Made by a program: the position numbers and the translations under genes
The notes under the pieces: generated by a model
Told to the model about the DNA's origin: nothing
Seen by the model: only the letters and a program-made list of their open reading frames with translations
Databases searched by the model: none
Shown: positions 1-23,218 of the stretch, in pieces
How positions within the stretch are numbered: the first letter of the stretch is position 1
Layout of the letters: every line of letters starts with the position of its first letter
From: a virus
Reading direction: 5' to 3' (one strand)
Virus record (IMG/VR): IMGVR_UViG_3300043788_000147
Location: 1-30,375 of that record
Length of the DNA: 30,375 nucleotides

Positions 1-721
1 CAGACTTGCCGAACGAGAACATGCGCTGCCAGAGATTGCCCTGCGACGATTTGCGGATTTCGTTCGAGTACCAGTAGAGGGAGGAGGTCGGGCGCAGGTA
101 GTCCTGGAACTTTGGGAACATGCCGTGTGCCATGTAGACCGGCATCTCGTCGAGGATCGTCATGGCGTAGGCTTGCTGGAAGTCCCCGCTGGGAGGGAGC
201 TGCGTCGGGAGGATGCAGGGAGCGCCGTAGGAGAGGAGACGGACGGCGCCCTGTCCCTGGCCGCCGAAGTCCCGCGAGTAGACCGGGCGTATCCAGCCCG
301 TGCAGGTCGCCGCGGCGTACTGGAGGGCTTCCTTGATTTTCACGTCGGCGAAGGTTTCGAGATACCATGCACGGACGTATTTGTTGAATAGTTCCGCGTT
401 GGCGGCGAAGGCGGAGTTGTCGGAGGAGTAGCCCCATAGAGGGCGGAGTTTCGCCAGTGCGCCGACAACCTCGCGGATATTGCGTTTGAGGTGGTTCGTG
501 TTCAGCTTGGAGCGGTATTTGAGGGCTTGCGGGCCGACGTTGCCGGAGATCACGTCGAGGGCCTGGCGCCAGTCGCTGTGGCCGCGTTGGGCGCGTAGCC
601 AGTTGAGGCCACACTCGGTGTTCTCGTTCAGCCAGCCGAGGACGCGCTCAGTGGGGACTCCCTTTGGTGGACACTGCCACTCGTGCAGCTTACCGTCGGA
701 ACGCTCTGAGTCCACGCTCAC
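1..721 (-). CDS. Putative portal protein, N-terminal part (runs off window)
   Basis: The frame is open from a GTG at 721 to the window edge (about 240 residues), and the 3' part lies outside. The GTG overlaps the TGA of the upstream gene as GTGA, indicating translational coupling. The product is soluble, rich in Trp, Tyr and Asn, with no signal peptide; stretches such as NLKRNIREVVGAL-like helices followed by WGYSSDN and FADVKIKEALQYAA resemble portal proteins of podovirus-like environmental phages. A portal is the dodecameric DNA gate at one capsid vertex, which docks the terminase. Its position just downstream of TerL and one small gene fits this role. The family assignment is inference from resemblance and gene order. 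A different head-tail joining protein is the main alternative. Confidence 0.5.
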   Translation of the reverse strand, partial: MSVDSERSDGKLHEWQCPPKGVPTERVLGWLNENTECGLNWLRAQRGHSDWRQALDVISGNVGPQALKYRSKLNTNHLKRNIREVVGALAKLRPLWGYSSDNSAFAANAELFNKYVRAWYLETFADVKIKEALQYAAATCTGWIRPVYSRDFGGQGQGAVRLLSYGAPCILPTQLPPSGDFQQAYAMTILDEMPVYMAHGMFPKFQDYLRPTSSLYWYSNEIRKSSQGNLWQRMFSFGKS

Positions 722-1137
722 AGGGATTCACCGAGGAGTTCTTCCGCGTTGCGCGGCTTGTCGAAGTTGAGTAATTCAAAGTAAGAAAGGCGCTGGTGGA
801 TGATGTCAGCGTATTTCTGCCGTCGTGTCTCGTCACGTAACTGGCACCATCCCCGCAAGAATTCTTTTGTCTGTAGGTCCGTATCGACGCTTTCCATACG
901 AGCCATGATTTTTCGTCGAATCTCCCGGCGCTTCTCCATGAATAAGGCTTCGTCTCGTTCACACTCCTGTTCGGCACGGTCAACAGAGTCACGCTGCATC
1001 CTCTTTTCGAGAGCAGCCACTTCGTAGATCGTGTTGGCTTCCTTGCGAATATATCCACTAGGAGTAGGTGTGTCAGACGTGGGAGGAAGAGAGATCACGC
1101 CAGAGGAATTCTCGAAATAGACAACATGTAGGGGCAT
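718..1137 (-). CDS. Hypothetical coiled-coil protein between TerL and portal
   Basis: This 139-residue protein follows TerL after 26 bases and overlaps the portal start by 4 bases. A GGGAGGA ribosome site precedes the ATG. The first 35 residues look flexible (Ser/Pro/Thr). From about residue 35 to 110 the protein is strongly charged and helical (Glu, Arg, Lys with regularly spaced Leu, Ile and Met), consistent with a coiled coil. No enzymatic motif or membrane segment is visible. Its location between terminase and portal suggests a packaging or head-assembly accessory, but that is inference only. Confidence 0.75.
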   Translation of the reverse strand: MPLHVVYFENSSGVISLPPTSDTPTPSGYIRKEANTIYEVAALEKRMQRDSVDRAEQECERDEALFMEKRREIRRKIMARMESVDTDLQTKEFLRGWCQLRDETRRQKYADIIHQRLSYFELLNFDKPRNAEELLGESL

Positions 1138-1163
1138 CGCCAGTCCTCCCGCTCACGATACCA

Positions 1164-3422
1164 TTACAAGTCCGACAGGTCCAGTGGCTTGTAGTTGTCG
1201 TCGCTCCTCGATGGAAACTTCTGTCCCACCGTCGGGCCGAGGTCGAGTGGGGGGAGCCGCCCCGCATCCGGGTCTCCCATGAACCGCTTTTTGGATCGCT
1301 CCGTCTTCGACTGCTTGCCGCGGACGATCTCGATCGAGATAGCTGCGGCGAAGATCCCGTCGTCGTGCTCGCCGTCCTCGTGCTCCTGCTTGATCTTCCC
1401 GCTGGCCGTCGAGTGTGCCTCGAAGTGCTCGCATTCGTGCAGCGTCCACGGGGAGTTGAGTTCGTACCAGCCCTGCTCGATGGTGTCGATGAAGCTGCCG
1501 ATCAGGATCGGGCGCGACCACGAGAATGTGTACCAGCCGAGCTTGTTGGACTTCGTGGATTTCTTGTTGTCGTAGCGCGTGAAGCCGAAGAATCGCTGGT
1601 AGCCCATTGAGCGCATCTGGACGAGACACACGTCGCCGACGGAGGCTACCACTTCCGGCGCGACGAGGGGCTGACGGTGCAGTTGGCCCTCGGCGGTCAT
1701 AGCGGAGGCGTAGTAGGACGCGATTGCCATGACAAACGCGTAGGCTTGAACGTGAGAGACGTAGCAGGAGCGGAATTCCGCCGCCTGACGGTCGGGCATC
1801 CCGGCGCGCGGGGCGATCTCGGTCACGCAGATCACGGTAGCGTCCTGACCCTTGCCCTCGGAGGTGTCGATGCCGATGGAGTAGTCGAAGCCGGGCCGAG
1901 GCGGGTGCCACACGAAGAGTTTGCCTTGGGCCGCGTCCCAGAAGGCGTCGGGATTGGACTTGCGCCATCCCTCGATGCGAGCGCGGTCCCACTTGAGAGG
2001 GATCAGCTCCCAGTTGTAGACCGGGCCGCGCGGGGAGCGGAATCGGACTGGGATGCGCGGGCGCGGGTCGGAGGGGGTACCGTAGTCGATGTCGTCCGGG
2101 TCCGGCTCGTAGTCGTCCTCGATGGACTGGCCGGTCAGGCCGTAGACGGAGTAGTCGCGGATGCGGTCGCGATCCACGCGCTCCATGACGTGATGGCCGA
2201 ACACGGACTCGGAGGATCGCTGGAGGGCTTCCACGTCGTCACCGGCCATCTCTTGGAACCATGTGCCCTCCGCACCCTTGGCCTTCGCTTCCTCATGCCC
2301 TACCTCCCAAAACCACTGCTGCTCGATAGGCATTGTGCCGTCCACCCACCAGTGCGCCTTCTGCGATCCCAGTTCAGGGTGAGGCGCACAGAGATGTTTG
2401 CGGATCATCTCGTGAGTACGGACGTAGAGTTCAGCCTTGGCGACATGCTCACGGGTATCCGGCAGCCGGTTCTCGTAAAATCCAGTCGGCACAGGCCGAG
2501 CACGCAGCCACGCAGGCTTGGGATAGATGTCGAGGCCGACAAACCACGGCAGAAAGCAGGGGAATAGTCGTGCCATACGATTGTCCCAGTTCGCTTTCGA
2601 GTGTCGCCATGTGTCGGCCAGCCAGCCCACGTCGCCCTCGCCAGTGCCCTCACCGATCCCGAGAATCGACGGCGATGCGTGGACGGCGCGGAAGAGGGAA
2701 GCCTCAATTTGCTCCTCGGGGTTCGAGAACGATCCGATCTCCGAGAGGTGCCAGATTGTAGGCGTCGAGCCGCGAGCGATGCCGCTCATCTGGTTGCCGT
2801 GCTGGATCGAGACGCCGGAGTTCAGGTAGGAGAATTCCAGCTTGCCGCGATCGGACTCGACGCGAGCGGTGAACTGGGGGCGCAGCCATTGCGGAAGCAT
2901 GTCATACGCCATGAAGAGTTTCTTCGCCATCATCAGCGACTTGCCTTGGTCGGCGGAGGCGATGACCGCGTTCACGCCGTAGGAGAAGACGATGCGGAGC
3001 ATGATGAGGAGTTCGACTACAGTGGTCATTCCAAGCTGGCGTGCCTTGAGTATCAGAATCTCAATCGCCACTTCCATCGCTTCGAGATCGCCGATGATGC
3101 CGAACAGGATCTGCTGCGCGATGCGAAATGCGAACCGACGCACCGCGCCTTCCTCATCCACTACGTAGCAGTATCGCGTGACGGCGTAGTCCGCGTCCGC
3201 CATGACGAGACAACGTTCGTTCAGCATCCATTGCGTTTCCCAATCGACGAGATTCTGCGTTCCGCACGGGCGGCCCTGATCGTCGTAAATATATTTCTTC
3301 TCGTTGTGTAGATGTTCCTCGAACATGGAGACTTCTTCGACGGAGTGGCGCTCGGGAGTGAAGTGGAATACGTCCTCGACTTCACTGCGGATGCGCTGGG
3401 CGACTTTAGTCGGATGATACAT
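1164..3422 (-). CDS. Terminase large subunit (TerL): packaging ATPase-nuclease
   Basis: This is the 752-residue DNA-packaging motor, which pumps phage DNA into the prohead and cuts it. The N-terminal ATPase has a Walker A-like motif KARQLGMTT (residues 126-134, the ARQLG-type phage P-loop) and a Walker B-like WHLSEIG (224-230), with E228 as the probable catalytic glutamate. The C-terminal RNase H-like nuclease shows IGIDTSEGKGQD (517-527; D519 expected to bind metal) and HDDGIFAAAI (686-695; D687/D688 as the terminal acidic residue). Length exceeds the common 450-600 residues, largely through N-terminal sequence and a long linker around 270-500. The ATG at 3422 lies inside the upstream gene's end (17-base overlap). 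Portal and small-terminase candidates flank it. Confidence 0.92.
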   Translation of the reverse strand: MYHPTKVAQRIRSEVEDVFHFTPERHSVEEVSMFEEHLHNEKKYIYDDQGRPCGTQNLVDWETQWMLNERCLVMADADYAVTRYCYVVDEEGAVRRFAFRIAQQILFGIIGDLEAMEVAIEILILKARQLGMTTVVELLIMLRIVFSYGVNAVIASADQGKSLMMAKKLFMAYDMLPQWLRPQFTARVESDRGKLEFSYLNSGVSIQHGNQMSGIARGSTPTIWHLSEIGSFSNPEEQIEASLFRAVHASPSILGIGEGTGEGDVGWLADTWRHSKANWDNRMARLFPCFLPWFVGLDIYPKPAWLRARPVPTGFYENRLPDTREHVAKAELYVRTHEMIRKHLCAPHPELGSQKAHWWVDGTMPIEQQWFWEVGHEEAKAKGAEGTWFQEMAGDDVEALQRSSESVFGHHVMERVDRDRIRDYSVYGLTGQSIEDDYEPDPDDIDYGTPSDPRPRIPVRFRSPRGPVYNWELIPLKWDRARIEGWRKSNPDAFWDAAQGKLFVWHPPRPGFDYSIGIDTSEGKGQDATVICVTEIAPRAGMPDRQAAEFRSCYVSHVQAYAFVMAIASYYASAMTAEGQLHRQPLVAPEVVASVGDVCLVQMRSMGYQRFFGFTRYDNKKSTKSNKLGWYTFSWSRPILIGSFIDTIEQGWYELNSPWTLHECEHFEAHSTASGKIKQEHEDGEHDDGIFAAAISIEIVRGKQSKTERSKKRFMGDPDAGRLPPLDLGPTVGQKFPSRSDDNYKPLDLSDL

Positions 3423-4119
3423 CGTCGGCGTCTCCCTCCGTCGAGTAGTCGCCGTCCACGGTTACGACTTCGTGGGTATGTCGAGGCATGAACGCCATCT
3501 CTACCGGGGGAGCGGGTGGGAGCGCTGGTTGCTGGCCGGAAGTGAGCGTCGCCGCAGATCGCTGCCGCGCCTCAACCATCTTGCGAATCGTGTCTTCCGG
3601 CGCGGGGAGAGTGGATACGTCAGCCTTGGCTGCGGCGTTCGCGGTGGCGTTGATACCGATGTTGATGGTGGAACCCTTGGGAGAGGGAGTGAATCCCATG
3701 TGCTTCAAGTGCGCCATGCGGTCGGTCACGCCGTCGGGCAGCATGGCGCACTGCGACGATACCTCAACGATGGCCTCGTGGCGCTCGGCGGCTTTGATCG
3801 CTCCGAGTTGCGCCTTCTGAAGTCGGATCACTTCGGCGATGACGCCGAACAGTCGCGTAGGAGACAGTCCGGCGGCTACCGAGAATGCTTCGAGCGGCAG
3901 CACTTTACGGACAAACGATGGCAGGATCGGGTTGTCGTATTTCGAGATGAAGTGGCGGGCTTCCGGGAGGTCCGATGCGCGGAGCGCGTCCAGCGCCGTC
4001 GCAGCTCCACCTTCGATGCGGGCAATCAGGTGGGTAATCTTTGGCGCGTCGGCCAAGGCGGTCGGGTCCACTCCGAGGAGAAGGAGAGCCTTGGCGCGTT
4101 GAGAGTTAGCGGTCGCCAT
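3406..4119 (-). CDS. Hypothetical protein upstream of TerL; candidate small terminase
   Basis: About 237 residues. The ATG at 4119 (MATANSQRAK) is preferred over in-frame upstream starts because a GAGGGAT ribosome site precedes it and the upstream residues are low-complexity Arg/Pro/Ser. The middle (roughly 60-160) is predicted helical with LFGVIAEVIRLQKAQLGAIK, and the last 80 residues are Pro/Ala/Thr-rich and probably disordered, ending in an acidic tail. The gene overlaps the TerL start by 17 bases. Small terminase subunits (DNA recognition, TerL regulation) often sit directly upstream of TerL, so that role is proposed from position. No clear helix-turn-helix was recognised, so confidence in function is low although the gene itself looks real. 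Confidence 0.7.
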   Translation of the reverse strand: MATANSQRAKALLLLGVDPTALADAPKITHLIARIEGGAATALDALRASDLPEARHFISKYDNPILPSFVRKVLPLEAFSVAAGLSPTRLFGVIAEVIRLQKAQLGAIKAAERHEAIVEVSSQCAMLPDGVTDRMAHLKHMGFTPSPKGSTINIGINATANAAAKADVSTLPAPEDTIRKMVEARQRSAATLTSGQQPALPPAPPVEMAFMPRHTHEVVTVDGDYSTEGDADDVSSD

Positions 4120-4282
4120 CGGAATCCCTCGTTTGCCAGCCACGTGCGAAGTCGGCGTCGGTGGCGACGGAGAACTCGGCCTTGCGCGTGGGGCGACGGG
4201 GCGGTGGCGGCGCGAGGCGGTCGAGCGCATCGGCGATGCGGCGCACCAGGACGAGGAATCGCGGCATGACGCGGATGGTCAT
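4106..4282 (-). CDS. Small basic hypothetical protein, 58 residues
   Basis: A short gene whose ATG (4282-4280) overlaps the TGA of the preceding gene by one base (TGATG) and whose end overlaps the following ATG at 4119 by 14 bases, so it fills an otherwise empty gap in a tightly packed operon. It starts MTIRVMPRFLVLVRRIADAL, followed by a proline run (APPPPRRPTRK) and a polar tail. The hydrophobic N-terminus is too Arg-rich for a clear membrane segment. No family was recognised. Confidence 0.6.
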   Translation of the reverse strand: MTIRVMPRFLVLVRRIADALDRLAPPPPRRPTRKAEFSVATDADFARGWQTRDSDGDR

Positions 4283-4809
4283 CAGAGTAGATTATCCGGT
4301 GTGAACCCGCCGATCTCCCGCCGCGCCTCCGCCGTCTTGTCCACAATCTCGGGCTCAGTGAAGTCCTCTGCCTGCATTCCTACGTCGATCGGTCGGTACT
4401 GAACGAGTTCCTCCCGTGTGTGGCCGTCACCGCCGAGCACGTCAACAGTGACCGGCAGCGAGTGCTCGACGCGGGCCAGGTTCGGGGAGGTGATCTCGCG
4501 CGACAGGCCGGACGACGTGAGGATGGATTCCGGCGATGGGTCTGAGAGCGGAAACGACTCCAGAGCCGCGTGGTCGGTGTCGATGGCCGGCGCGGGGCGG
4601 GACTGGGTGACTTCGACCGCAGTCGGCATCGCAGGCAGGTCAAGGTGGAGAGTCACGCGGATGTCGTAGGCGATGCGCGAGTACGCGGACTGGCCTGCGA
4701 GGAAGCCGGACTCGGAGACCATGCGGTGGATGTCGGATTCGATGATAGCGGCGAGTTCGGTTCCGGCGAGCGGACGATTGCTGACGAGTTCCTTCGACGT
4801 GGGTGACAT
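4282..4809 (-). CDS. Hypothetical protein, 175 residues
   Basis: The ATG at 4809 overlaps the TAA of the upstream gene (TAATG), and its TGA overlaps the next ATG, so it is part of one translationally coupled operon. The first 60 residues (SKELVSNRPLAGTELAAIIE onward) look globular and are followed by a beta-like stretch RIAYDIRVTLHLDLP; the rest is Ser/Pro/Asp/Glu-rich and likely flexible. No catalytic motif, signal peptide or membrane segment. No family recognised; a structural or packaging accessory is possible from context. Confidence 0.7.
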   Translation of the reverse strand: MSPTSKELVSNRPLAGTELAAIIESDIHRMVSESGFLAGQSAYSRIAYDIRVTLHLDLPAMPTAVEVTQSRPAPAIDTDHAALESFPLSDPSPESILTSSGLSREITSPNLARVEHSLPVTVDVLGGDGHTREELVQYRPIDVGMQAEDFTEPEIVDKTAEARREIGGFTPDNLL

Positions 4810-5171
4810 TAGGATTCCTTTCGTACTCGGAGTGGCCGCGCGGCGCGCAACCGTTCACTGTTCGACAAGTATAACGCGACGCGGGCCTCCAGTGACGACC
4901 GGGATTCGCGTGGGTCGTCAAGGGCGAGACGGCGGATCACGCGGAGGGGGATGCCGCGGGACAGGAGGGATGACAGCCACAGGCGATGATCGCTGCGCAA
5001 CGTCTCGATGAGCGGCACCTTGGAGAATATCTTCCGCATGATCGGAGAGTGCTCCCACTGGGCCAGCCACACGAGAGTCGCCGCGTGCCAGTGCTGCCAG
5101 CGGGAGTCGGCGATGGCGGCGAAGTGGGGGGTAGCGGTGAGCGTGGCGGTCGGAGTGGTTGCGGAGATCAT
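4809..5171 (-). CDS. Hypothetical protein, 120 residues
   Basis: Coupled on both sides: its ATG overlaps the upstream TGA as ATGA, and its TAA overlaps the next ATG. Residues 20-50 are tryptophan-rich (WQHWHAATLVWLAQWEH), followed by an Arg/Leu-rich helical C-terminal half (LSSLLSRGIPLRVIRRLAL). There is no cysteine cluster and no convincing transmembrane helix. Function unknown. Confidence 0.7.
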   Translation of the reverse strand: MISATTPTATLTATPHFAAIADSRWQHWHAATLVWLAQWEHSPIMRKIFSKVPLIETLRSDHRLWLSSLLSRGIPLRVIRRLALDDPRESRSSLEARVALYLSNSERLRAARPLRVRKES

Positions 5172-5707
5172 CCCATATCCTCCAGCCCCGGCGGGGGCGG
5201 CACGGTGCGGGGGCGGCGAGCCTCTGAAAGTTTCTCCATGTCCGACAGCCGCGAATTATCGTCAAGTTTTTTAGCCAATTCGTCGTATCTCTGGCGGATT
5301 ACCGCTGGCAAAATTTCTATTCCCTGTTTCGCCAGCTCCTTATTTAAATCCGAAGCCAATTCCTGCACTAGAGTTGGCTGTGGTAGCGGCTCCAGCGTGA
5401 TCCCGTGCTTCCGCGCTTTGGCCCGCAGCCGATCCGCGCGACGCCGCTTCACCGCCGCCTTCCTGAGCCGCCGCCGCTCGGCCTCGGATGGAGTACGCCC
5501 GTGAGCCGTCGTCGCCGAGGTGTCCCAGTACGCCGAGTGGCACAGCGGACAGGTCTTCGGGTGCACCGTGCGGCCGGTCCAGCGGTTGCCGCAGCGGAGG
5601 CACTCGTGGGTCGGGGTCGGCGTCTGAAGCGCGGCGTCTACGAGTCCCGCGATGCGGTCCAGCTCGCAGTAGAGCAGGTCCGGCGCGTTTGAGTCGTCAA
5701 TGCTCAC
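5168..5707 (-). CDS. Zinc-ribbon hypothetical protein, 179 residues
   Basis: It starts at a GTG (5707-5705) overlapping the upstream stop as GTGA. Residues about 36-57 form a CxxC...CxxC zinc ribbon (CLRCGNRWTG ... CPLCHSAYW). A highly basic segment follows (about 75-105, many Arg and Lys), then a charged helical region and a proline-rich tail. The ribbon plus basic stretch is compatible with nucleic-acid binding. Ribosome site is weak, so expression probably depends on coupling. Function is unassigned; DNA binding is inference. Confidence 0.72.
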   Translation of the reverse strand: MSIDDSNAPDLLYCELDRIAGLVDAALQTPTPTHECLRCGNRWTGRTVHPKTCPLCHSAYWDTSATTAHGRTPSEAERRRLRKAAVKRRRADRLRAKARKHGITLEPLPQPTLVQELASDLNKELAKQGIEILPAVIRQRYDELAKKLDDNSRLSDMEKLSEARRPRTVPPPPGLEDMG

Positions 5708-6003
5708 TGCTTCACCAGCCCAAGAGTCCCACCATCCATTTGCGCCCGTGTCTGTTCCGGTTGCGGGTCCACCAGCTTGAACATGTCGGTGAACTGCATC
5801 CCCCCACTGAATGGAACGGGCATGGTGGCAACCAGCATCATCATCCCCTGGAGCGGCATCCCGCCGCCGGGGGACTCGATGACGCCCGCCGATTCGAGTT
5901 CGACGATGCGGAAGGTCAGCGCCGGGGATTGCAGCGTGACGCGGACGAGGTCGCCGCGGCGCAGCTCGTTCCCCAGCGCGTCGAGTGGTCGGGAGCGTTC
6001 CAT
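5704..6003 (-). CDS. Hypothetical beta-rich protein, 99 residues
   Basis: The sequence (RRGDLVRVTLQSPALTFRIVELES and later methionine-rich LQGMMMLVATMPVPF) suggests a small beta-barrel, SH3-like fold. It overlaps the next GTG start by 4 bases and begins 7 bases after the upstream membrane gene. No enzyme motif, signal or membrane segment. Function unknown. Confidence 0.68.
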   Translation of the reverse strand: MERSRPLDALGNELRRGDLVRVTLQSPALTFRIVELESAGVIESPGGGMPLQGMMMLVATMPVPFSGGMQFTDMFKLVDPQPEQTRAQMDGGTLGLVKQ

Positions 6004-6010
6004 CGCCCGG

Positions 6011-6412
6011 CTACTCCTTCACCGCCGCGGCTGGAGTAGACGGCGCAGACGCCGGCGAAGGCGCGACCGCCGCTCCGAGATTCGTGTTCAGCGTTTCGAG
6101 CGTCGTCTCGTTCGCCTGCACGGTAGCCAGCGCGGACTGGAGCGACTGAACCGCGGCCAGCACCTGCGGATCTTCAGCAGCGGCAGACGACCCGAGCGCG
6201 GTGATTGCGGCAGTGACGTTCGTGTTCAGGCTGGCGAGATCGGTTGACATCTGAGTGGCGAAGGATTGCAGCGTGGGGACCAGCGCCTGCAACGCGGTGA
6301 GTCCGGGGGTAGCGCTCGACATGATTTTGTCTCCGATGTAGAGGATTGTGCCCGCGATGGCTCCCGCGATGATCAACGACGCTGCGAGGATGGCCACGGC
6401 GATCACTGCCAA
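6011..6412 (-). CDS. Membrane-anchored coiled-coil protein; possible lysis-related
   Basis: About 133 residues from a TTG at 6412, although GTG at 6406 is an alternative, since neither has a strong ribosome site. Residues 1-28 form one hydrophobic transmembrane helix (AVAILAASLIIAGAIAGTIL). Residues 38-115 are a heptad-like Leu/Ala/Thr/Gln coiled coil, followed by an Ala/Pro-rich tail. One N-terminal anchor plus a coiled coil resembles inner-membrane spanins and some holin-associated proteins, but no spanin partner was identified next to it. It is the first gene of the left packaging operon. Membrane topology is well supported; the lysis role is speculative. Confidence 0.62.
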   Translation of the reverse strand: MAVIAVAILAASLIIAGAIAGTILYIGDKIMSSATPGLTALQALVPTLQSFATQMSTDLASLNTNVTAAITALGSSAAAEDPQVLAAVQSLQSALATVQANETTLETLNTNLGAAVAPSPASAPSTPAAAVKE

Positions 6413-6820
6413 CCACAGTACCGCGATGGGACGCGGGTGTCAAGGGGGAAAGTGAGAGGCGACGCAAGAGGCGACGGAGTAGGTGACGAAAATAAAATAT
6501 AAAATGTTGATATGGTGGGGGATGAGGGCGTGAACATGACACCGTCCACCCGGCCCATCTCTCACGGACAACTCGCGCCGCGGCCGGCGGACTCGGGATC
6601 GGGATCGGCGGCGCGACGAGGGATCAGCCCGCGACGGGCGACGGGCGGTAGGATCGGCGACGGCGCGACCCCGTGACGGAGCCGGCGCGACCTGGTGAGC
6701 TGGTAGGCCGCCGGTCGTCGCGGACTGGGACGTGGGACTCTCCGGTCGCGGGACCGATTCGTACAGCGAGAACCAGTCACTAAACCCCTCCCCCCCTCCC
6801 CCCCTCTCTGTAGCCAACCA
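6413..6820. other. Mostly non-coding divide left of the HNH gene
   Basis: About 400 bases without a convincing gene. The only long frames here are Arg/Pro/Ser low-complexity readings with no ribosome site. Two things stand out: an AT-rich island at about 6485-6512 inside otherwise GC-rich DNA, possibly a promoter or melting site for the minus-strand operon (no good -35/-10 pair was found), and a pyrimidine tract near the right end. No terminator with a T-tract was recognised. Confidence 0.5.
6785..6806 (-). repeat. G-rich homopurine tract (minus strand)
   Basis: The plus strand shows C runs of 4, 7 and 7 separated by single T residues, so the minus strand carries G7-A-G7-A-G4 within 22 bases. 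It lies 15 bases downstream of the HNH stop codon. Such tracts can form G-quadruplex or triplex DNA and are prone to length change; whether this one is functional is unknown. Confidence 0.6.
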
Positions 6821-7048
6821 TCATGCCCAAGTATCAGGATCGCATCGGCGCAACCTGGCGTGCTCCTCACGATGATGTTTGACGCATAGCCAAACGATGA
6901 GTAGGGGCTGATGATAGTCCGGATGGTGGCCTTGCACTTTGGTATCAGCACAGACTTGGCACGGTTGCTTAACGATCTTGCCAGAGGCGATGGCGCTAGA
7001 TAGTTTATTCCTGGCGCGGTTGCCGAGCGCAGCTCTTTCGGGATTCAT
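6821..7048 (-). CDS. Small HNH-type endonuclease-like protein
   Basis: A 75-residue protein with the pattern CQVC (about residues 30-33), QGHHPDY (43-49) and CVKHHREEH (about 56-64), i.e. two cysteine pairs/HH signatures around a beta-beta-alpha zinc-binding HNH core, as in many small phage endonuclease VII/HNH proteins. The basic N-terminus (ALGNRARNKLSSAI) probably contacts DNA. It is encoded divergently from the right operon, with about 180 bases containing a plus-strand promoter between them. The ribosome site is weak. Possible roles include a nicking nuclease in packaging or a mobile nuclease; the sequence does not decide. Confidence 0.72.
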   Translation of the reverse strand: MNPERAALGNRARNKLSSAIASGKIVKQPCQVCADTKVQGHHPDYHQPLLIVWLCVKHHREEHARLRRCDPDTWA

Positions 7049-11208: not shown

Positions 11209-11427
11209 ATGGGACGAACTCTCGAACCAGCACGACCAAACCGCTACCGGGCCAGCAACGAGCACAATCGCATCGCGCCTGCATGTGGGTGCGAGATCGG
11301 ACGCGACCAGAGCCCGCTCGGACACACACGTCCGCGCCAAGTGGGCCGGAAAGCAGGATTAACTGTGTATCAGCGCGAGCAACAGGCGGTCAGACGGGCG
11401 GCGAGGGCGCTTCGGCGGACGCTGTAG
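11209..11427 (+). CDS. Small basic hypothetical protein, 72 residues
   Basis: Start ATG 11209 follows CGGAGG; a much longer in-frame extension upstream would overlap two genes. Basic, Arg-rich sequence (TLEPARPNRYRASNEHNRIA, and a C-terminal RRAARALRRTL), perhaps nucleic-acid binding. Its 3' end overlaps the convergent minus-strand gene by 38 bases, marking the end of the accessory operon. Confidence 0.6.
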   Translation: MGRTLEPARPNRYRASNEHNRIAPACGCEIGRDQSPLGHTRPRQVGRKAGLTVYQREQQAVRRAARALRRTL

Positions 11428-12478
11428 AGGGATCTCTGTATCCTCGCGCAAAGTTAGACGTATGGGCCTGCTTACGCCTAACTTTGAACGGATCGTGACA
11501 GCCCGACCAATCGACGCCTAGTGGATACTTCTCGTTGATCTCATCCACGGTCTCGGTGGTGCGCTGCCCGAACGGGACATCCTCCATCACTCCGTCGCAC
11601 TCGCCGCAGGTGCAGAGTGAGGCGGGGTCGCTGAACTCCTTGGTAGGATCATTCTCGTGCGTCTCTGGATCAGGCTCGTTGGCAGGGGTCGGCGTGTCGC
11701 ATTCGCGGTAGAAGTCACCGGCGGTGGCCATCAGCCGATCGCCGTCGTTCCTCATCAGGACTCGCGCGGCGGTGTGTCCGCATACGTCGGTCAGCAATGA
11801 CTCCGTAGACGCGAACATCCACTTGAGCACGCGCATCGGGTCGATCTCGCGGTAGGGCTGAATCGACCATCCTACGCCGGCGATCTTGCGGAGTTGGTCA
11901 AGGGTATCGCGGTAGGGGAGCTGCGCTGCTTGGAGCACAAAGCGAACGCGGGAGTGTGTCGGGTGCGCCTCGAGCACGCGCCGGCGGACGTTCGACATCC
12001 CGCGGCGGCGGAACCATTGCGCCAGCGTGGCTGCTACCTTGCGAGCCTTCTTCATGTCGTCCTTTGGGCCAATGACCTCGACTCCGACTTGGCGCTCAGT
12101 ACGGACAATCGGCGCTCGTGTGCGGAGCCAGCAATGGAGCAGGTTGTGAGGCTGCCCGCAGTACATACAGATGAGCAGGTGGCAGGTGTGGCGGTGAGCC
12201 TTGGCGGCGTTCCCTTTCTTGCACTTTTTGTAGACGGAACCGTAGCGCCCGCAGTCGGCGAGGCGCTGCGCCGCGTTCTCGAACTCCCACGACTCGGCGA
12301 GCGTGACGACGGCTTCGCGAGTGTGCTTGCGCAAGGACTGGTAGCGTGGCGCGATCTGGCCGTGGATAACGGCGGTCAGGCGATCGGGCTCAGGGTTGAC
12401 GGTGAGTATCTCTTCGGTCAGGCGGGGGTCGTTGAGGTTGATGGTGGACGATGAAGGCGTAACGGCACTGGTTGTCAT
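11390..12478 (-). CDS. Zinc-finger protein, possible replication-initiator-like
   Basis: 362 residues with GGGAGAG upstream of the ATG. Residues about 75-115 are Cys/His-rich (CGRYGSVYKKCKK ... HTCHLLICMYCGQPHNLLHC), reminiscent of zinc knuckles before the catalytic domain of some rolling-circle Rep proteins. A basic helical region follows (AATLAQWFRRRGMSNVRRR), then AHPTHSRVRFVLQA, and a late CTCGECDG cluster (near 285-292). No intact HUH/Tyr catalytic pair was recognised. Residues 12-32 share the NDPRLT..E.LTVNP motif with the SSB-like protein at 19423. It is one of few minus-strand genes in the middle of the window, next to a DnaA-box region. A transcription regulator is an equally open alternative. 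Confidence 0.75.
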   Translation of the reverse strand: MTTSAVTPSSSTINLNDPRLTEEILTVNPEPDRLTAVIHGQIAPRYQSLRKHTREAVVTLAESWEFENAAQRLADCGRYGSVYKKCKKGNAAKAHRHTCHLLICMYCGQPHNLLHCWLRTRAPIVRTERQVGVEVIGPKDDMKKARKVAATLAQWFRRRGMSNVRRRVLEAHPTHSRVRFVLQAAQLPYRDTLDQLRKIAGVGWSIQPYREIDPMRVLKWMFASTESLLTDVCGHTAARVLMRNDGDRLMATAGDFYRECDTPTPANEPDPETHENDPTKEFSDPASLCTCGECDGVMEDVPFGQRTTETVDEINEKYPLGVDWSGCHDPFKVRRKQAHTSNFARGYRDPSTASAEAPSPPV

Positions 12479-12621: not shown

Positions 12622-12853
12622 GCGTTTGTAATATTTTATTTTGGGGCGTGGTCATCCTCCCCTGCTCCTCCTCCACGCTGGGGCGACCGAACTGTCTACG
12701 CCAGGCGATGCCGTCCCAGATCAGGGCGCGGAGGGCAGAATGGAGGTTACGGTCCTCTCCGATGGCAATTCGTTCGGCATGGATGTGAAGCTCGACCGGA
12801 ATGCGCATGTACGTGACCTTGCCGGGCGGATGAGGACTTTTCGTTCGGGTCAT
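12611..12853 (-). CDS. Ribbon-helix-helix-like DNA-binding protein
   Basis: 80 residues from ATG 12853. A beta-strand-like TYMRIPVELHIHAERIAI is followed by a helix (EDRNLHSALRALIWDGIAWR), the order expected of CopG/Arc-type ribbon-helix-helix repressors. No ribosome site precedes the ATG and a promoter -10 ends 7 bases before it, so the mRNA may be leaderless. It faces the divergent promoter of the recombination operon and could autoregulate the intergenic region. An in-frame upstream extension would run through the promoters and is unlikely. Confidence 0.65.
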   Translation of the reverse strand: MTRTKSPHPPGKVTYMRIPVELHIHAERIAIGEDRNLHSALRALIWDGIAWRRQFGRPSVEEEQGRMTTPQNKILQTLDT

Positions 12854-12859
12854 AGAGCC

Positions 12860-12888
12860 AGTGTGCCACAAATCAGGGAGTGTGTCAA
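12860..12888 (-). promoter_or_regulatory. Promoter for the ribbon-helix-helix gene
   Basis: Minus strand: TTGACA (12888-12883), 17-base spacer, CACACT (12865-12860; A2, A4 and T6 match the consensus -10). Transcription would start almost at the ATG (12853). Confidence 0.45.
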
Positions 12889-12894
12889 TAATAA

Positions 12895-12903
12895 TTATCC
12901 ACA
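12895..12903 (+). promoter_or_regulatory. Consensus DnaA box between divergent promoters
   Basis: TTATCCACA, the high-affinity DnaA box of many bacteria, in an AT-rich intergenic patch between two divergent TTGACA promoters. It may mark an origin or a DnaA-responsive switch; one site alone proves neither. Confidence 0.55.
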
Positions 12904-12914
12904 GTTGATTTTTC

Positions 12915-12943
12915 TTGACAGCATTCCGCTTGGCGCGTATATT
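12915..12943 (+). promoter_or_regulatory. Strong sigma70-like promoter for the DNA-metabolism operon
   Basis: TTGACA (12915-12920), 17-base spacer, TATATT (12938-12943; 5 of 6 to consensus). The start would fall near 12950, giving a short leader with GGAGGA before the ATG at 12968. Confidence 0.72.
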
Positions 12944-12967
12944 CCTCACATAGCAACGGAGGAATCA

Positions 12968-13414
12968 ATGGCAATGCGATCACACGAACTGGCAGCACAA
13001 CTCATCGCGACCGGGCAGTACCTCCTGTCCCGGCCCGACTTCGAGACTCCTTGTACGTCCCACTCGCTGTACCTGGGATCGTACTGGGACGACAAGGAGC
13101 GATTTATCGCAGCGGTACGGGCGCTCGGTGCCGGCATCAAGTCCTACAACGGCTCTGATCTCCAGTTCAACACCAAGACTCCGTTGGAGATATGGACGCG
13201 GATCAATCGGCAGTCTGTATGTAAGAAGGTGCAGGAGGAGAAGTGGGAATGTGAGCCCTTGCTGACGCCAGACGAGGACGCGGCTATCGGAGGGGACGCG
13301 TCTACACCTCCAGTTCCAGCACCTTACGAGGGTAACCTCGTTGGCGGGTTGATGGGCGCAGTGGACAAGGTAACCGATGCGAGCGTTATGACCGACGACG
13401 ATATACCGTTCTAA
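12968..13414 (+). CDS. Protein of unknown fold with SSB-type DDDIPF tail
   Basis: 148 residues; ATG 12968 follows CGGAGGA and lies 24 bases after the promoter, excluding the longer upstream frame. Residues 1-100 look like a small alpha/beta domain (SHELAAQLIATGQYLL; DDKERFIAAVRALGAGIKSY) without an evident OB fold. A flexible Pro/Ala/Gly linker follows, and the protein ends TDDDIPF, the acidic tip by which bacterial SSB recruits repair and replication enzymes. It leads the operon with the Cas4-like gene, so a role in replication or recombination is likely. The tail may bind host SSB partners or imitate host SSB (inference). A degenerate SSB is the alternative. Confidence 0.75.
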   Translation: MAMRSHELAAQLIATGQYLLSRPDFETPCTSHSLYLGSYWDDKERFIAAVRALGAGIKSYNGSDLQFNTKTPLEIWTRINRQSVCKKVQEEKWECEPLLTPDEDAAIGGDASTPPVPAPYEGNLVGGLMGAVDKVTDASVMTDDDIPF

Positions 13415-13428
13415 GGAGGCTAAGGCCA

Positions 13429-15087
13429 ATGACATCAATCACTTGGACGGATCGATCGCGGATTGAAACATTCCAATCCTGCCCGAGAAAACGCTGGCTC
13501 GAATACCACGAGGGACCGAGTGGACGCGGGATCGTACCGACGCGGAAGCCGCTTCCGTTGGCAGTCGGCGGGAGTGTGCATAAGGGACTGGAATCCCTGT
13601 TGCTAGGCCACTCTGAGGACGAGGCCGTCGCCGCGGCCCTCGCCGACTTCGCCACGCACCGCTCCGCGCTGGCCTTGGACATCGCCGAATCGTCCGCCAT
13701 CGCCGCGGAGGTGGACCCGAAGGATCAGGGCTTCGACGCCCAGGTGCTAGCGACGGCGCGGGATCTCGGGATGTCCCCGGACGACCCGGCGATGCAGGAG
13801 CTGCTCGGCCGGCAACGGAATGCCGCAGCGGAGTTCGACGACTGGCTCTGGCGCGAGCAGGCGGCGCTGGTCGAGGGGCTGGTGCGGGCGTATGCGCGGC
13901 GGCGACTAGGATCGCTGCTCGAGGAGTTCGAGGTGCTGGAGGTGGAGCGGGAGGGGGACTGGGAGCTGGCGGAGCTGCGTGAGGAAGTAGTACAGGAGTG
14001 GCCAGTGTATAACGTGTTAGTGGATGGCGCGGCGATCCGCTTTATGTCCCGCCCCGACGCCCTCTTACGCAGCCGGAACGACAACTCCCTCTACCTGCTG
14101 TCGTACAAGACGGCAGCCACGTGGGACATCCGCAAGGCGCGGGACGCGGAGCATGACATGCAGGGGCTGAGTGAGGGCGTGGAGGTGGAGCGGCGGCTGG
14201 GGGAGTGGTGGGCGCTGCTGCACGACGGTAGTTGCGAGGGCCTGACGAACAACGAAGCCTGCAACGAGATTGGCGTGGAGCAGAGCGATATGGCTACGGT
14301 TGCGTACCTCCGCCACCTCCCCGCCCCGCCTCGCATCCTCGGCATCCGCTACGAGTACCTGCTCAAAGGCGGGCGTTGGGAGGATGACCGCCTGTCGAAG
14401 CACTTCGGGATCAAGGTATGGTCACAGCGGTCACCACTGATCCGTCGCTACGTCGCGCACTCGACGCCATCGCGCGGAAAGAACGCTGGAGGATTCAACA
14501 TCGGCGATCACTGCTGGTCGTGGGACTACCATCTCGAAGATGGCACGGTGTCGAAGCTGTCCGCGTCGAACTGGCATTCCGAGTCAGTGTGGGACGGATC
14601 AGACGGCATGACGATTAAGGAATGGATCGACGCTCTCGATGCGACCGCCGAGGCCATGTCCGCGTACGACTCTACTACCGGCGCGGAGCCACGATCGCTC
14701 GGCTACTCCGGGCCGGCGCAATCGCTCGGATTCACGGCGACGCATCCCTTGGACGAGGTGTTCCCGGCGCCGCTGACCGTCTACCGCCAGGACGACCAGC
14801 TGCGCGATCTCGTGGACCAGATTGAGGCGCAGGAGGTGCGGGTCGCGGATGGCGTGGCGGCGGTAGCGGAGGCGACAGATGCTGGCGAGCGGCGCCACCT
14901 GTTGAACGTGCACTTCCCACAGAGCCGTCGGAGCTGCTGCTATCCGTCGCTGTGTGTGTTCGATCGCGTGTGCTTCGGCGGCGAGGATATCCAGGCGGAT
15001 CCGGTCGGGAGCGGGTTGTATCAGATCCGCGTCGCCAATCACTCACAGGAGCGGGATGGAGCGAGGGCCGAGCCCAATGTGGTCTAA
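13429..15087 (+). CDS. Cas4/RecB-like PD-(D/E)XK family Fe-S protein
   Basis: 552 residues with GGAGG upstream. Early cysteine C18 (FQSCPRKRWLEYH) and the late cluster C503/C504, C509, C515 match the one-plus-three cysteine layout of Cas4 and AddB 4Fe-4S nucleases. Nuclease-like motifs: GSVHKGLE (48-55), RPDALL with D210, and LLSYKTA with K227; the usual acid two residues before the lysine is Ser225, so catalytic competence is not certain. Such enzymes process DNA ends in recombination. The gene follows the SSB-tail protein directly. A divergent paralogue lies at 26281-27378. Confidence 0.8.
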   Translation: MTSITWTDRSRIETFQSCPRKRWLEYHEGPSGRGIVPTRKPLPLAVGGSVHKGLESLLLGHSEDEAVAAALADFATHRSALALDIAESSAIAAEVDPKDQGFDAQVLATARDLGMSPDDPAMQELLGRQRNAAAEFDDWLWREQAALVEGLVRAYARRRLGSLLEEFEVLEVEREGDWELAELREEVVQEWPVYNVLVDGAAIRFMSRPDALLRSRNDNSLYLLSYKTAATWDIRKARDAEHDMQGLSEGVEVERRLGEWWALLHDGSCEGLTNNEACNEIGVEQSDMATVAYLRHLPAPPRILGIRYEYLLKGGRWEDDRLSKHFGIKVWSQRSPLIRRYVAHSTPSRGKNAGGFNIGDHCWSWDYHLEDGTVSKLSASNWHSESVWDGSDGMTIKEWIDALDATAEAMSAYDSTTGAEPRSLGYSGPAQSLGFTATHPLDEVFPAPLTVYRQDDQLRDLVDQIEAQEVRVADGVAAVAEATDAGERRHLLNVHFPQSRRSCCYPSLCVFDRVCFGGEDIQADPVGSGLYQIRVANHSQERDGARAEPNVV

Positions 15088-18366: not shown

Positions 18367-19404
18367 ATGGCTGATAGCGGCGTACTATACGGCGAAACCG
18401 ACACGTTCAAAACCACTGCCATCGGTCACATGGCGCAATACATCGCTGAGAAAACGGGCAAGGCGACTCTACTGTTCTCGGCGGATGGCGGCGGCTGGAA
18501 GCCGGTTCAGGAGGAGATCGACGCAGGAATGATCCGGCCATACCGGTGCGACACGGCGGTGATCCCGCTGCCGATCCTGCGCAAGGTGTCGCAGGGCTAC
18601 TGGCCGCGAAACCCAGAGGAGACGAATATCTCCCTCGTGGACTTCTGTCCCATCGATTGGTCGGACGTGGGCGCGGTGGCGATTGAGGGATTCACCTCGA
18701 TCGGGACCATGCTGATGCGCCACGTTGCGGACAAGAATCTCAAGACGGGGGAGGAAGGCACGACCCCGTTCTCCATGCCGATCCGCGTCTCCGGCGAACT
18801 GCGCAATGAGACCTTCGCCGGCAATTCTCGCGGTCACTATAATTTCGTTCAGAACCAGCTGTACGGGCTCACCATGAACTTTATATCGTGGCCGGTCGCG
18901 TATGTCCTGTTCACGGGCCACGAGAAGAAGACGGAGGAGGGTGACCGTACCGTCGTCATGGGTGTGGCGGTACCTGGCAAGGCGATCACGCCGCTAATCC
19001 CAACGTGGGTCGGCGACTGTATCCACGCGCAGGACTACCAGACGGAGAAGGTGACGCTGCTGCCGAAGCCTGGCGGCAAGCCCGGCGAGACCGTCGAGGA
19101 CAAAACGTTCGAGCGGCACTGTCGATACTACTTTCGCAAGCACCCAGATCCGGTGACAGGGCTGTGCTTCCCAGCGAAACCACGCGTGACTCACTCGGCG
19201 GTGAAGGAGCTGGATCGGCGATTCCCTGGCGGATTCTTCGAGCCGACGCCGGAACACGGGTTCGACCTGTACCTGCGCGCGCTGGATGAGCTGGCGGCGT
19301 CGAAGTCGAACGCGATGAAAGGCTGGCGTGAGCGTGTAGATCTGAAATTGGGGCGTGGTAAAGCCTCAGCGGTAGCAGAACTGGCATCAAAGTCAATCAC
19401 ATAA
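18367..19404 (+). CDS. Sak4-like RecA-fold ATPase with variant P-loop
   Basis: 345 residues; AGGAGGGG precedes the ATG. VLYGETDTFKTTAIG (6-20) lies where Walker A is expected; it keeps Lys15-Thr16 but has Phe14 in place of the usual Gly. AVAIEGFTSIG (103-113) is Walker B-like with Glu107. AYVLFTGHEKK and AVPGKAITPLIPTWVGD match the later strands of phage single-strand-annealing ATPases of the Sak4 type. It is followed after 18 bases by an SSB-like gene, the common Sak4 pairing for phage recombination. The unusual P-loop leaves ATP hydrolysis uncertain. Confidence 0.72.
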   Translation: MADSGVLYGETDTFKTTAIGHMAQYIAEKTGKATLLFSADGGGWKPVQEEIDAGMIRPYRCDTAVIPLPILRKVSQGYWPRNPEETNISLVDFCPIDWSDVGAVAIEGFTSIGTMLMRHVADKNLKTGEEGTTPFSMPIRVSGELRNETFAGNSRGHYNFVQNQLYGLTMNFISWPVAYVLFTGHEKKTEEGDRTVVMGVAVPGKAITPLIPTWVGDCIHAQDYQTEKVTLLPKPGGKPGETVEDKTFERHCRYYFRKHPDPVTGLCFPAKPRVTHSAVKELDRRFPGGFFEPTPEHGFDLYLRALDELAASKSNAMKGWRERVDLKLGRGKASAVAELASKSIT

Positions 19405-19422: not shown

Positions 19423-20172
19423 ATGAGCAGCTTCGGCGATGTTACGTATGCTGACGCGCCTGCGGAAACCGCCGCAGCCTCGCCCAGCGATCCCACGACA
19501 ATCATTGATCCCAACGACCCTCGACTCACGTCGGAAACCTTGACCGTGAACCCGGACGCGGACGCGTATGCGATCCTCCCGCCGCTCCCCGACGGCAAGT
19601 GGCGCGCAAAGGCGAAGCAGGTTGACATCAAGGACGACAAGGGCCAGCAGCAACGGTACGCAGTGTTCAGCCGCGCCAAGATGGCCAACGGCGCGCCGTT
19701 CTTCGCCACCAACATCGAATACTCGATCATCGACCATTCCGGCGAGTTCGACGGGGTCAAGCTGACCGAATACTGGGTCAAGACGCTTGTCGATGCGCGC
19801 AAGGGCACGTCGCAGGCGGCGACCATGATCGGCAAGCTGGGGGGGAAGGTGCCGCCGAGTGGCAGCCAGAAGGCGTACATCGACGCGCTGCTGGCGACTC
19901 TCGCCGCCGAGCCGGAACTGATATTGGAGACTGCGTGGTCGGCAGAGTGCCAGCACTGCCAGGAGGTGGCGAAGAAGAAAGGTGACAAGGCGCCACGTCC
20001 GTTCCTGTCCGGGATGCACCGGTTCCCGGCGACCAAGACTCCAGGCGTCCACGACCCGATCGTCAAGTGCCCGACGTGCGCGAGTCAGGTCCGCGCGCAG
20101 GCCCGGCTGGTGGCTCCGTTCTCGCTGAGGGAGTCGCAGGCCACGCGAGGGACGGGGGCGGCGGGGAAGTAG
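19423..20172 (+). CDS. Putative SSB-like protein with zinc-finger insert
   Basis: 249 residues; AAAGGAG precedes the ATG. A disordered N-terminus contains the NDPRLT..E.LTVNP motif (residues 26-47) also found in the protein at 11390-12478. A beta-rich core (about 52-125: GKWRAKAKQVDIKDDKG, FFATNIEYSIIDHSG) and a helix (AYIDALLATLAAEPE) resemble DUF669/OB-type phage ssDNA-binding accessories. CQHC (near 183) and CPTC (near 221) form a probable zinc site. Pairing with the upstream Sak4-like ATPase supports ssDNA binding, but the OB fold is not proven and there is no DDDIPF tail here. Confidence 0.62.
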   Translation: MSSFGDVTYADAPAETAAASPSDPTTIIDPNDPRLTSETLTVNPDADAYAILPPLPDGKWRAKAKQVDIKDDKGQQQRYAVFSRAKMANGAPFFATNIEYSIIDHSGEFDGVKLTEYWVKTLVDARKGTSQAATMIGKLGGKVPPSGSQKAYIDALLATLAAEPELILETAWSAECQHCQEVAKKKGDKAPRPFLSGMHRFPATKTPGVHDPIVKCPTCASQVRAQARLVAPFSLRESQATRGTGAAGK

Positions 20173-22933: not shown

Positions 22934-23218
22934 ATGATTACCGTCAGGTTCCCGAGTGGATTCTCAGTGCAATACAACTCGCTCTGTGCCATGAAGTGGG
23001 ACAACAGTAGTAATGGAATGGTTCTCTACGCGTCTGTTGCGGATCGGGATGCGGGCAAAGGATGGGTGGTCCACGTCCCTGCTGACTGCATAGTGGAGTT
23101 CATTAGCCCGTGCCGGACCTATGACGCCAAGGTTGAGGACAACAAGTTTCACGCCATTCAGGCCGAAATACGCAAGCTGAAGAACGCCGTCAATCGGATC
23201 GCACGCAATGCGAAGTAA
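22934..23218 (+). CDS. Hypothetical protein, 94 residues
   Basis: GTAGGAGG precedes the ATG; the 3' end overlaps the polymerase start by 11 bases. A beta-rich front (MITVRFPSGFSVQYNSL; GWVVHVPADCIVEFISP) is followed by a charged helix (KFHAIQAEIRKLKNAVNRIA) that may form a coiled coil. Its location between helicase and polymerase suggests a replication accessory role (inference). Confidence 0.66.
   Translation: MITVRFPSGFSVQYNSLCAMKWDNSSNGMVLYASVADRDAGKGWVVHVPADCIVEFISPCRTYDAKVEDNKFHAIQAEIRKLKNAVNRIARNAK

Follow-up and report, generated by a model that had tools for sequence, protein, structure and literature searches.

We showed that two otherwise unrelated proteins of a family of soil bacteriophages carry nearly the same short N-terminal segment. 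In one of them, an SSB-like protein, this segment forms a conserved arm; in the other, a Cys-rich protein (the Zn protein), it recurs in a form that varies with the arm of the same genome. The analysis concerned the window (the whole of a 30,375-base phage record) together with approximately 27 related IMG/VR phages that were recovered. The motif is very probably real and maintained by selection. The preliminary description of this DNA had suggested a docking peptide for a common partner, and this remains the best explanation: we give a probability of about 0.55 to the reading that the SSB arm and the Zn segment dock on a common partner. The conservation of the arm and its recurrence on a second protein speak in favor of this idea, but in some Zn proteins the motif is missing or degenerate, and it is therefore not strictly required there.

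Organization of the window

The left-hand part of the window contains a block of minus-strand structural genes, including a terminase-like gene (1164-3422, minus strand), to the right of which lies a plus-strand replication/recombination block. The Zn gene (11390-12478, minus strand; 362 aa) adjoins the latter block, and its divergent neighbor encodes a PDDEXK nuclease (13429-15087, plus strand). A Sak4-like (RecA-like) annealing protein is encoded at 18367-19404 (plus strand; phrog_124, E 1.2e-6), and the gene of the SSB-like protein (19423-20172, plus strand; 249 aa) is located directly 3' of it. A Dda-like helicase gene follows in the same plus-strand block, which also contains the gene of a family A DNA polymerase (23208-26123, plus strand) that carries a UDG-like domain at its N-terminus. 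A uracil-DNA-glycosylase-like domain and a polymerase are thus joined in a single ORF (Pfam PF03167, E 5.8e-16; PF00476, E 7.3e-33).

The segment shared by the two proteins

The segment comprises residues 12-32 of the Zn protein (12383-12445, minus strand; TINLNDPRLTEEILTVNPEPD) and residues 26-47 of the SSB-like protein (19498-19563, plus strand; TIIDPNDPRLTSETLTVNPDAD), where it lies within the conserved arm (residues 29-58). The claim of the preliminary description that the two proteins have this motif in common and are otherwise unrelated was confirmed: 13 of the 17 core residues are identical, and the similarity is limited to residues 3-34 of the Zn protein. The local alignment of the two N-termini scored 86, compared with a mean of 25.4 for shuffled sequences (sd 5.0, maximum 52; 500 shuffles).

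The match had also been described as one kept at the protein level, and this view was upheld. The same codon is used for only 4 of the 13 identical residues and the nucleotide identity is 65%, which shows that the resemblance resides in the protein. These values bear directly on the alternative of an element at the DNA or RNA level (a regulatory site, a recent duplication or a product of gene conversion) in place of a protein motif. Such an element would fit the location of the segment close to the 5' end of both genes, as well as the recombination documented at the 5' end of the Zn gene (see below). Against it stand the different codons of 9 of the 13 identical residues, the similarly low nucleotide identity in other genomes (0.58-0.69), the unequal position of the segment (codon 16 in the Zn gene, codon 31 in the SSB-like gene) and the upstream DNA, which is dissimilar as judged by eye. 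The codon differences and non-matching positions largely refute this alternative, which we regard as very improbable.

Conservation of the arm in the SSB-like family

Direct searches with the SSB-like protein yielded eight close relatives plus a more distant one (55% identity), and more were obtained via searches with Sak4 and PDDEXK. The arm has the consensus [ND]DPxLxSExL..x..xDAYAxPPPxPDG in this family and is its best-conserved stretch (21 aligned sequences, with identity down to 29%). The mean frequency of the most common residue is 0.73 in the arm, compared with 0.55 in the rest of the protein and 0.44 in residues 1-28; the residues preceding the arm thus vary freely. Five of the 13 invariant columns fall within it (D32, P33, L35, D47 and A50). 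A single member, the remote relative L110, lacks the NDP core and retains only the second half of the arm (ANQYAAPRPPTPG).

The Sak4 gene adjoins the SSB-like gene in all related loci. This neighborhood supports the label “SSB-like” used in the preliminary description, whereas support from sequence similarity is absent, since neither the window protein nor the 21-member alignment matched any entry of Pfam, PHROG, NCBIfam or PDB. In view of this lack of a family assignment, we infer a putative SSB function from the position of the gene beside Sak4, by analogy with phages HK620 and Tunturi_1. The AlphaFold model of the SSB-like protein is of low confidence (mean pLDDT 44) and gave no meaningful Foldseek match; Foldseek matches from the low-confidence models of both proteins were not interpretable. 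No prophage or host copies were found when sought via Sak4 in genome_contigs.

The Zn-protein family and the recurrence of the motif

Single-sequence searches with the Zn protein detected no relative in viral_contigs, genome_contigs, phages or PDB, and the family came to light only by inspection of the PDDEXK neighborhood and by the use of profiles. In the homologue of G009 the motif is present together with the Cys region; profile searches then added the homologues of G004, G005, G006 and G008. Further members (L078, L079, L081, L077, L084, L069, L072, L068 and L102) were recognized by their position, cysteine pattern and weak profile scores, family membership being least certain for L068, L069 and L072. 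Wherever a record includes the PDDEXK gene, the Zn homologue adjoins it on the opposite strand. The bodies of these proteins are very divergent (approximately 20-25% identity), and the cysteines appear to have been lost from some homologues (L068, L104).

The N-termini of the Zn proteins are represented by INLNDPRLTEEILTVNPEPD (G000), ALTSEILTIDPTADAYS (G004), ITANDPRLFTTLQRIDPAANWYA (G005), ISANDPAITNQILNENPNGDSY (G009), TIDPNDPRLTQQILDV (L078), AIDPNDPRLYEPIDP (L102), LPSINDPSLDALQ (L084) and LPDINDPGLDKIVD (L081). The pattern [ND]DPx[LI] is retained in 8 of 15 Zn proteins. It occurs near the N-terminus in 7/14 of them, and additionally in L102 (IDPNDPRL), compared with 3 of 1440 background ORFs (minimum length 150 aa); the nominal binomial value of 6e-16 overstates the evidence, because related phages do not supply independent Zn proteins. 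In the G004 protein the NDP half is missing and the second half of the arm is kept. The motif is degenerate in G006, G008 and L079, and absent from L068, L069 and L072. In the Zn homologues of G000, G004 and G009 the identity is 0.38-0.50 within the motif, compared with 0.18-0.23 in the body.

The recurrence was also apparent from a blind scan, in which a profile built from SSB N-termini alone was run over all six-frame ORFs. In ten phages (6305 ORFs) the Zn proteins of G000, G004, G009 and G005 took the first four places among the non-SSB matches. With a profile from 24 SSB sequences (9145 ORFs) no non-SSB match reached E<0.05 except the Zn proteins from G000, G009, L078 and G004. A strict DNA pattern for NDPRLTxExLT recovered SSB copies only. 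A third gene carrying the motif was sought in these genomes and none was found.

Both segments are located near an Ala/Ser/Thr/Pro-rich N-terminus, and one might therefore suspect a chance or compositional resemblance of two low-complexity regions. This possibility, whose probability we consider negligible, is refuted by three counts: the score of the window pair, approximately 12 sd above the shuffles, the first rank of the Zn proteins among 9145 ORFs in the blind scan, and the motif frequency of 7/14 versus 3/1440. The preliminary description had raised the question of whether the motif recurs on different domains within one genome, and had named homologues of both proteins devoid of it as refuting evidence. 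Such recurrence was seen in many phages, in which the arm is present on both the SSB-like and the otherwise unrelated Zn protein. With regard to homologues devoid of the motif, the picture is mainly favorable, the exceptions being L110 and the several Zn proteins in which the motif is lacking or degenerate. In its presence on two proteins that are unrelated elsewhere, and in its protein-level conservation, the segment has the properties of a shared short linear motif.

A different structural module is present in G001, G002, G003 and G007. These four phages keep the SSB arm, and no Zn homologue was detected in them by profile, which indicates that the arm does not depend on this Zn protein. At the position of the Zn gene, G001 and G007 encode a different Cys-containing protein without the motif (L070, 3672-4724; L076, 1191-2303).

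Some members of the Zn family weakly resemble, at the same region, the zinc domain of IS91-type transposases and rolling-circle Rep proteins (PF14319, Zn_Tnp_IS91). The arrangement of cysteines is similar, and weak matches, below the curated cut-off, were obtained for three homologues (G008, L079 and L084; E 0.0033, 0.0055 and 0.68). The region following the Cys part also looks ferredoxin-like in a low-confidence model. Unlike the IS91/Rep proteins, the Zn proteins have no consistent HUH motif or catalytic tyrosine as read by eye, and by the same means no HxH pattern could be aligned across the members compared (the corresponding region reads FYAIHIG in G004, FHVIHEG in G005, FHVLWID in G008, KIFYVG in G009 and RFVLQA in G000). 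The weak resemblance to the IS91/Rep zinc domain, together with the divergent promoter-like sites near the gene, suggests that the Zn protein may have a DNA-binding role in replication or regulation.

A separate observation concerns the C-terminus of the Zn proteins, which ends in PPx or PPxx in 10/14 members (11390-11410 in the window), compared with 1% of other ORFs. Endings such as SPPV, SPPS, SPPPW, PPSA and PPPE are found, and homologues of this type are L060, L034, L038, L041, L056, L077, L079, L081, L084 and L069. The G004 protein ends with VSPPS if read past the fetched boundary.

Co-variation and history of the segment

The two copies of the segment resemble each other in a genome-specific manner. 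Both proteins read LTSEILTI[ND]PxADAY in G004, both contain NENPxGDxY in G009 and both have LPDINDP[SG]L in L081. Own-genome Zn/SSB pairs outscored permuted pairings (p ~0.001; 11 genomes, with a statistic that ignores shared ancestry), and p values of 0.01-0.03 were obtained for subsets chosen as clade representatives. The signal is driven mostly by the LPxxDDP clade versus the rest.

The within-genome nucleotide identity of the two segments gives no sign of recent copying, and the codons lend no support to gene conversion within a genome; recent gene conversion can be excluded on these sequence grounds. The SSB gene closest at the nucleotide level to the Zn motif of the window is that of G004 (0.80), and the motif may thus represent an old capture from the SSB gene of a relative. 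A different kind of event was seen in G005 and G006. The bodies of their Zn genes (L034, 11095-12159; L038, 16571-17623) are 98-100% identical from approximately +120 nt, whereas their initial 95 nt and the 300 nt that precede the genes are sharply diverged (57-73% nucleotide identity). The abruptness of this change near +95 nt points to a recombination joint just after the motif, by which the 5' ends of the Zn genes were exchanged.

This exchange, as well as the loss or degeneration of the segment in about half of the Zn proteins, is what might be expected if the 5' end of an SSB-like gene had once been copied onto a Zn ancestor and merely persisted, or was repeatedly acquired, without any common function. 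We consider such a historical relic improbable. The codons of the two copies differ widely (in the window the same codon serves only 4/13 identical residues), so that the residues have outlasted many synonymous changes. Moreover, both the retention of the motif on Zn bodies that are 18-23% identical and its co-variation with the SSB copy argue for selection.

A putative docking arm and its proposed mimic

The SSB-like protein appears to consist of a flexible N-terminal tail, the conserved [ND]DPxLxSExL(x)n DAYAxPPPxPDG segment and a folded core, and the segment could serve as its recognition arm. The Zn protein, a member of an unrelated and fast-evolving family, would bear a copy or mimic of this arm at its own N-terminus. 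An invariant segment that follows a presumably flexible N-terminus, is carried by two unrelated proteins and is genome-specific fits a shared docking peptide. Both arms would then dock on one surface of a core protein of recombination or replication; a single site of the phage DNA replication or recombination machinery probably receives both proteins. The Zn protein might thereby be recruited to the SSB-coated complex or compete with the SSB there.

SSBs usually recruit their partners via an acidic C-terminal tip. An acidic C-terminal tail of the IPF type was found in none of the 24 SSB-like proteins of the phages studied here. In phage HK620 the C-terminal tail of the SSB is required for Sak4 to bind SSB-coated DNA (PMC5928155), and the neighboring Sak4-like annealase is for this reason a sensible first candidate partner, although we think it rather doubtful that Sak4 itself is the one. 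The polymerase, the helicase and the SSB core are alternatives. Most records also encode a nuclease, a helicase and a polymerase, and the partner therefore cannot be picked from the sequence alone.

The family studied here resembles known SSBs with a C-terminal tip (DDDIPF, or NDYPPF in HK620, which has Sak4) in that a short peptide is conserved outside the presumed DNA-binding core, the adjacent gene is of the Sak4 type and the peptide is the proposed contact for partners. The peptide described here differs in being N-terminal and devoid of the acidic-IPF sequence, in having a docking role predicted from sequence, and in its presence on a second, unrelated phage protein. The Tunturiibacter phage Tunturi_1 likewise groups its exonuclease, Sak4 and SSB genes, but its SSB ends with DDSDIPF and has no detected arm, whereas the SSB-like protein of the window has the arm and no such tail.

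Alternatively, the arm might be a self-association element, which packs on the core of the neighboring SSB subunit; the Zn copy would then bind the SSB as a recruited partner or as a cap by which the growth of the oligomer is stopped. This would agree with the direct continuation of the arm into the conserved PPPxPDG and the first predicted core strand (low-confidence model), with the presence of the arm in nearly all SSB-like proteins, irrespective of whether a Zn homologue accompanies them, and with the variation of the Zn copy with the SSB of the same genome. Sequence cannot separate this arrangement from docking on a third protein; we judge it unlikely.

If the docking reading is correct, this phage lineage, which lacks the acidic tip and has instead a nearly invariant N-terminal arm that is also borne by an unrelated protein of possible regulator or replication type, would constitute a natural case of docking-site mimicry. 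A specific interaction between small proteins, approachable by peptide binding, is thereby predicted. Tentatively, and with somewhat less confidence than in docking as such, we propose that a previously undescribed N-terminal docking code replaces the C-terminal tip in this phage SSB family, and that a Rep-like zinc protein mimics this code, co-evolves with it genome by genome and is dedicated to the SSB-recombinase complex, either as a recruit or as an antagonist. No paper describing an N-terminal docking motif of phage SSBs was found in a literature search. The shared segment would provide a first functional lead for two undescribed phage protein families, neither of which has a match above the cut-off in Pfam, PHROG or NCBIfam.

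Other features of the window

A divergent pair of promoter-like sites is located at 12894-12943 (consensus matches only): TTGACA-17-TATATT on the plus strand (12915-12943) and CTGTCA-16-GATAAT on the minus strand (12921-12894). These sites separate a leftward pair of genes, i.e. a small ORF (12853 to 12611; possibly of ribbon-helix-helix type, as judged by eye) and the Zn gene, from the rightward replication block. No iteron-type repeats were evident near the Zn gene, and no anti-phage defense families were found. Upstream of the PDDEXK gene, an ORF at approximately 12836-13414 (plus strand), with no Pfam match and no counterpart in the related phages tested, has the C-terminal sequence VMTDDDIPF, which resembles the C-terminal tip of bacterial SSBs.

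The terminase of the window (1-7000 region) shows 77-78% identity to those of four uncultured relatives, in which the 7.5-11 kb ORFs have no match. Among cultured phages, the closest one found by terminase was Tunturi_1, whose host is an acidobacterium, at only 30% identity.
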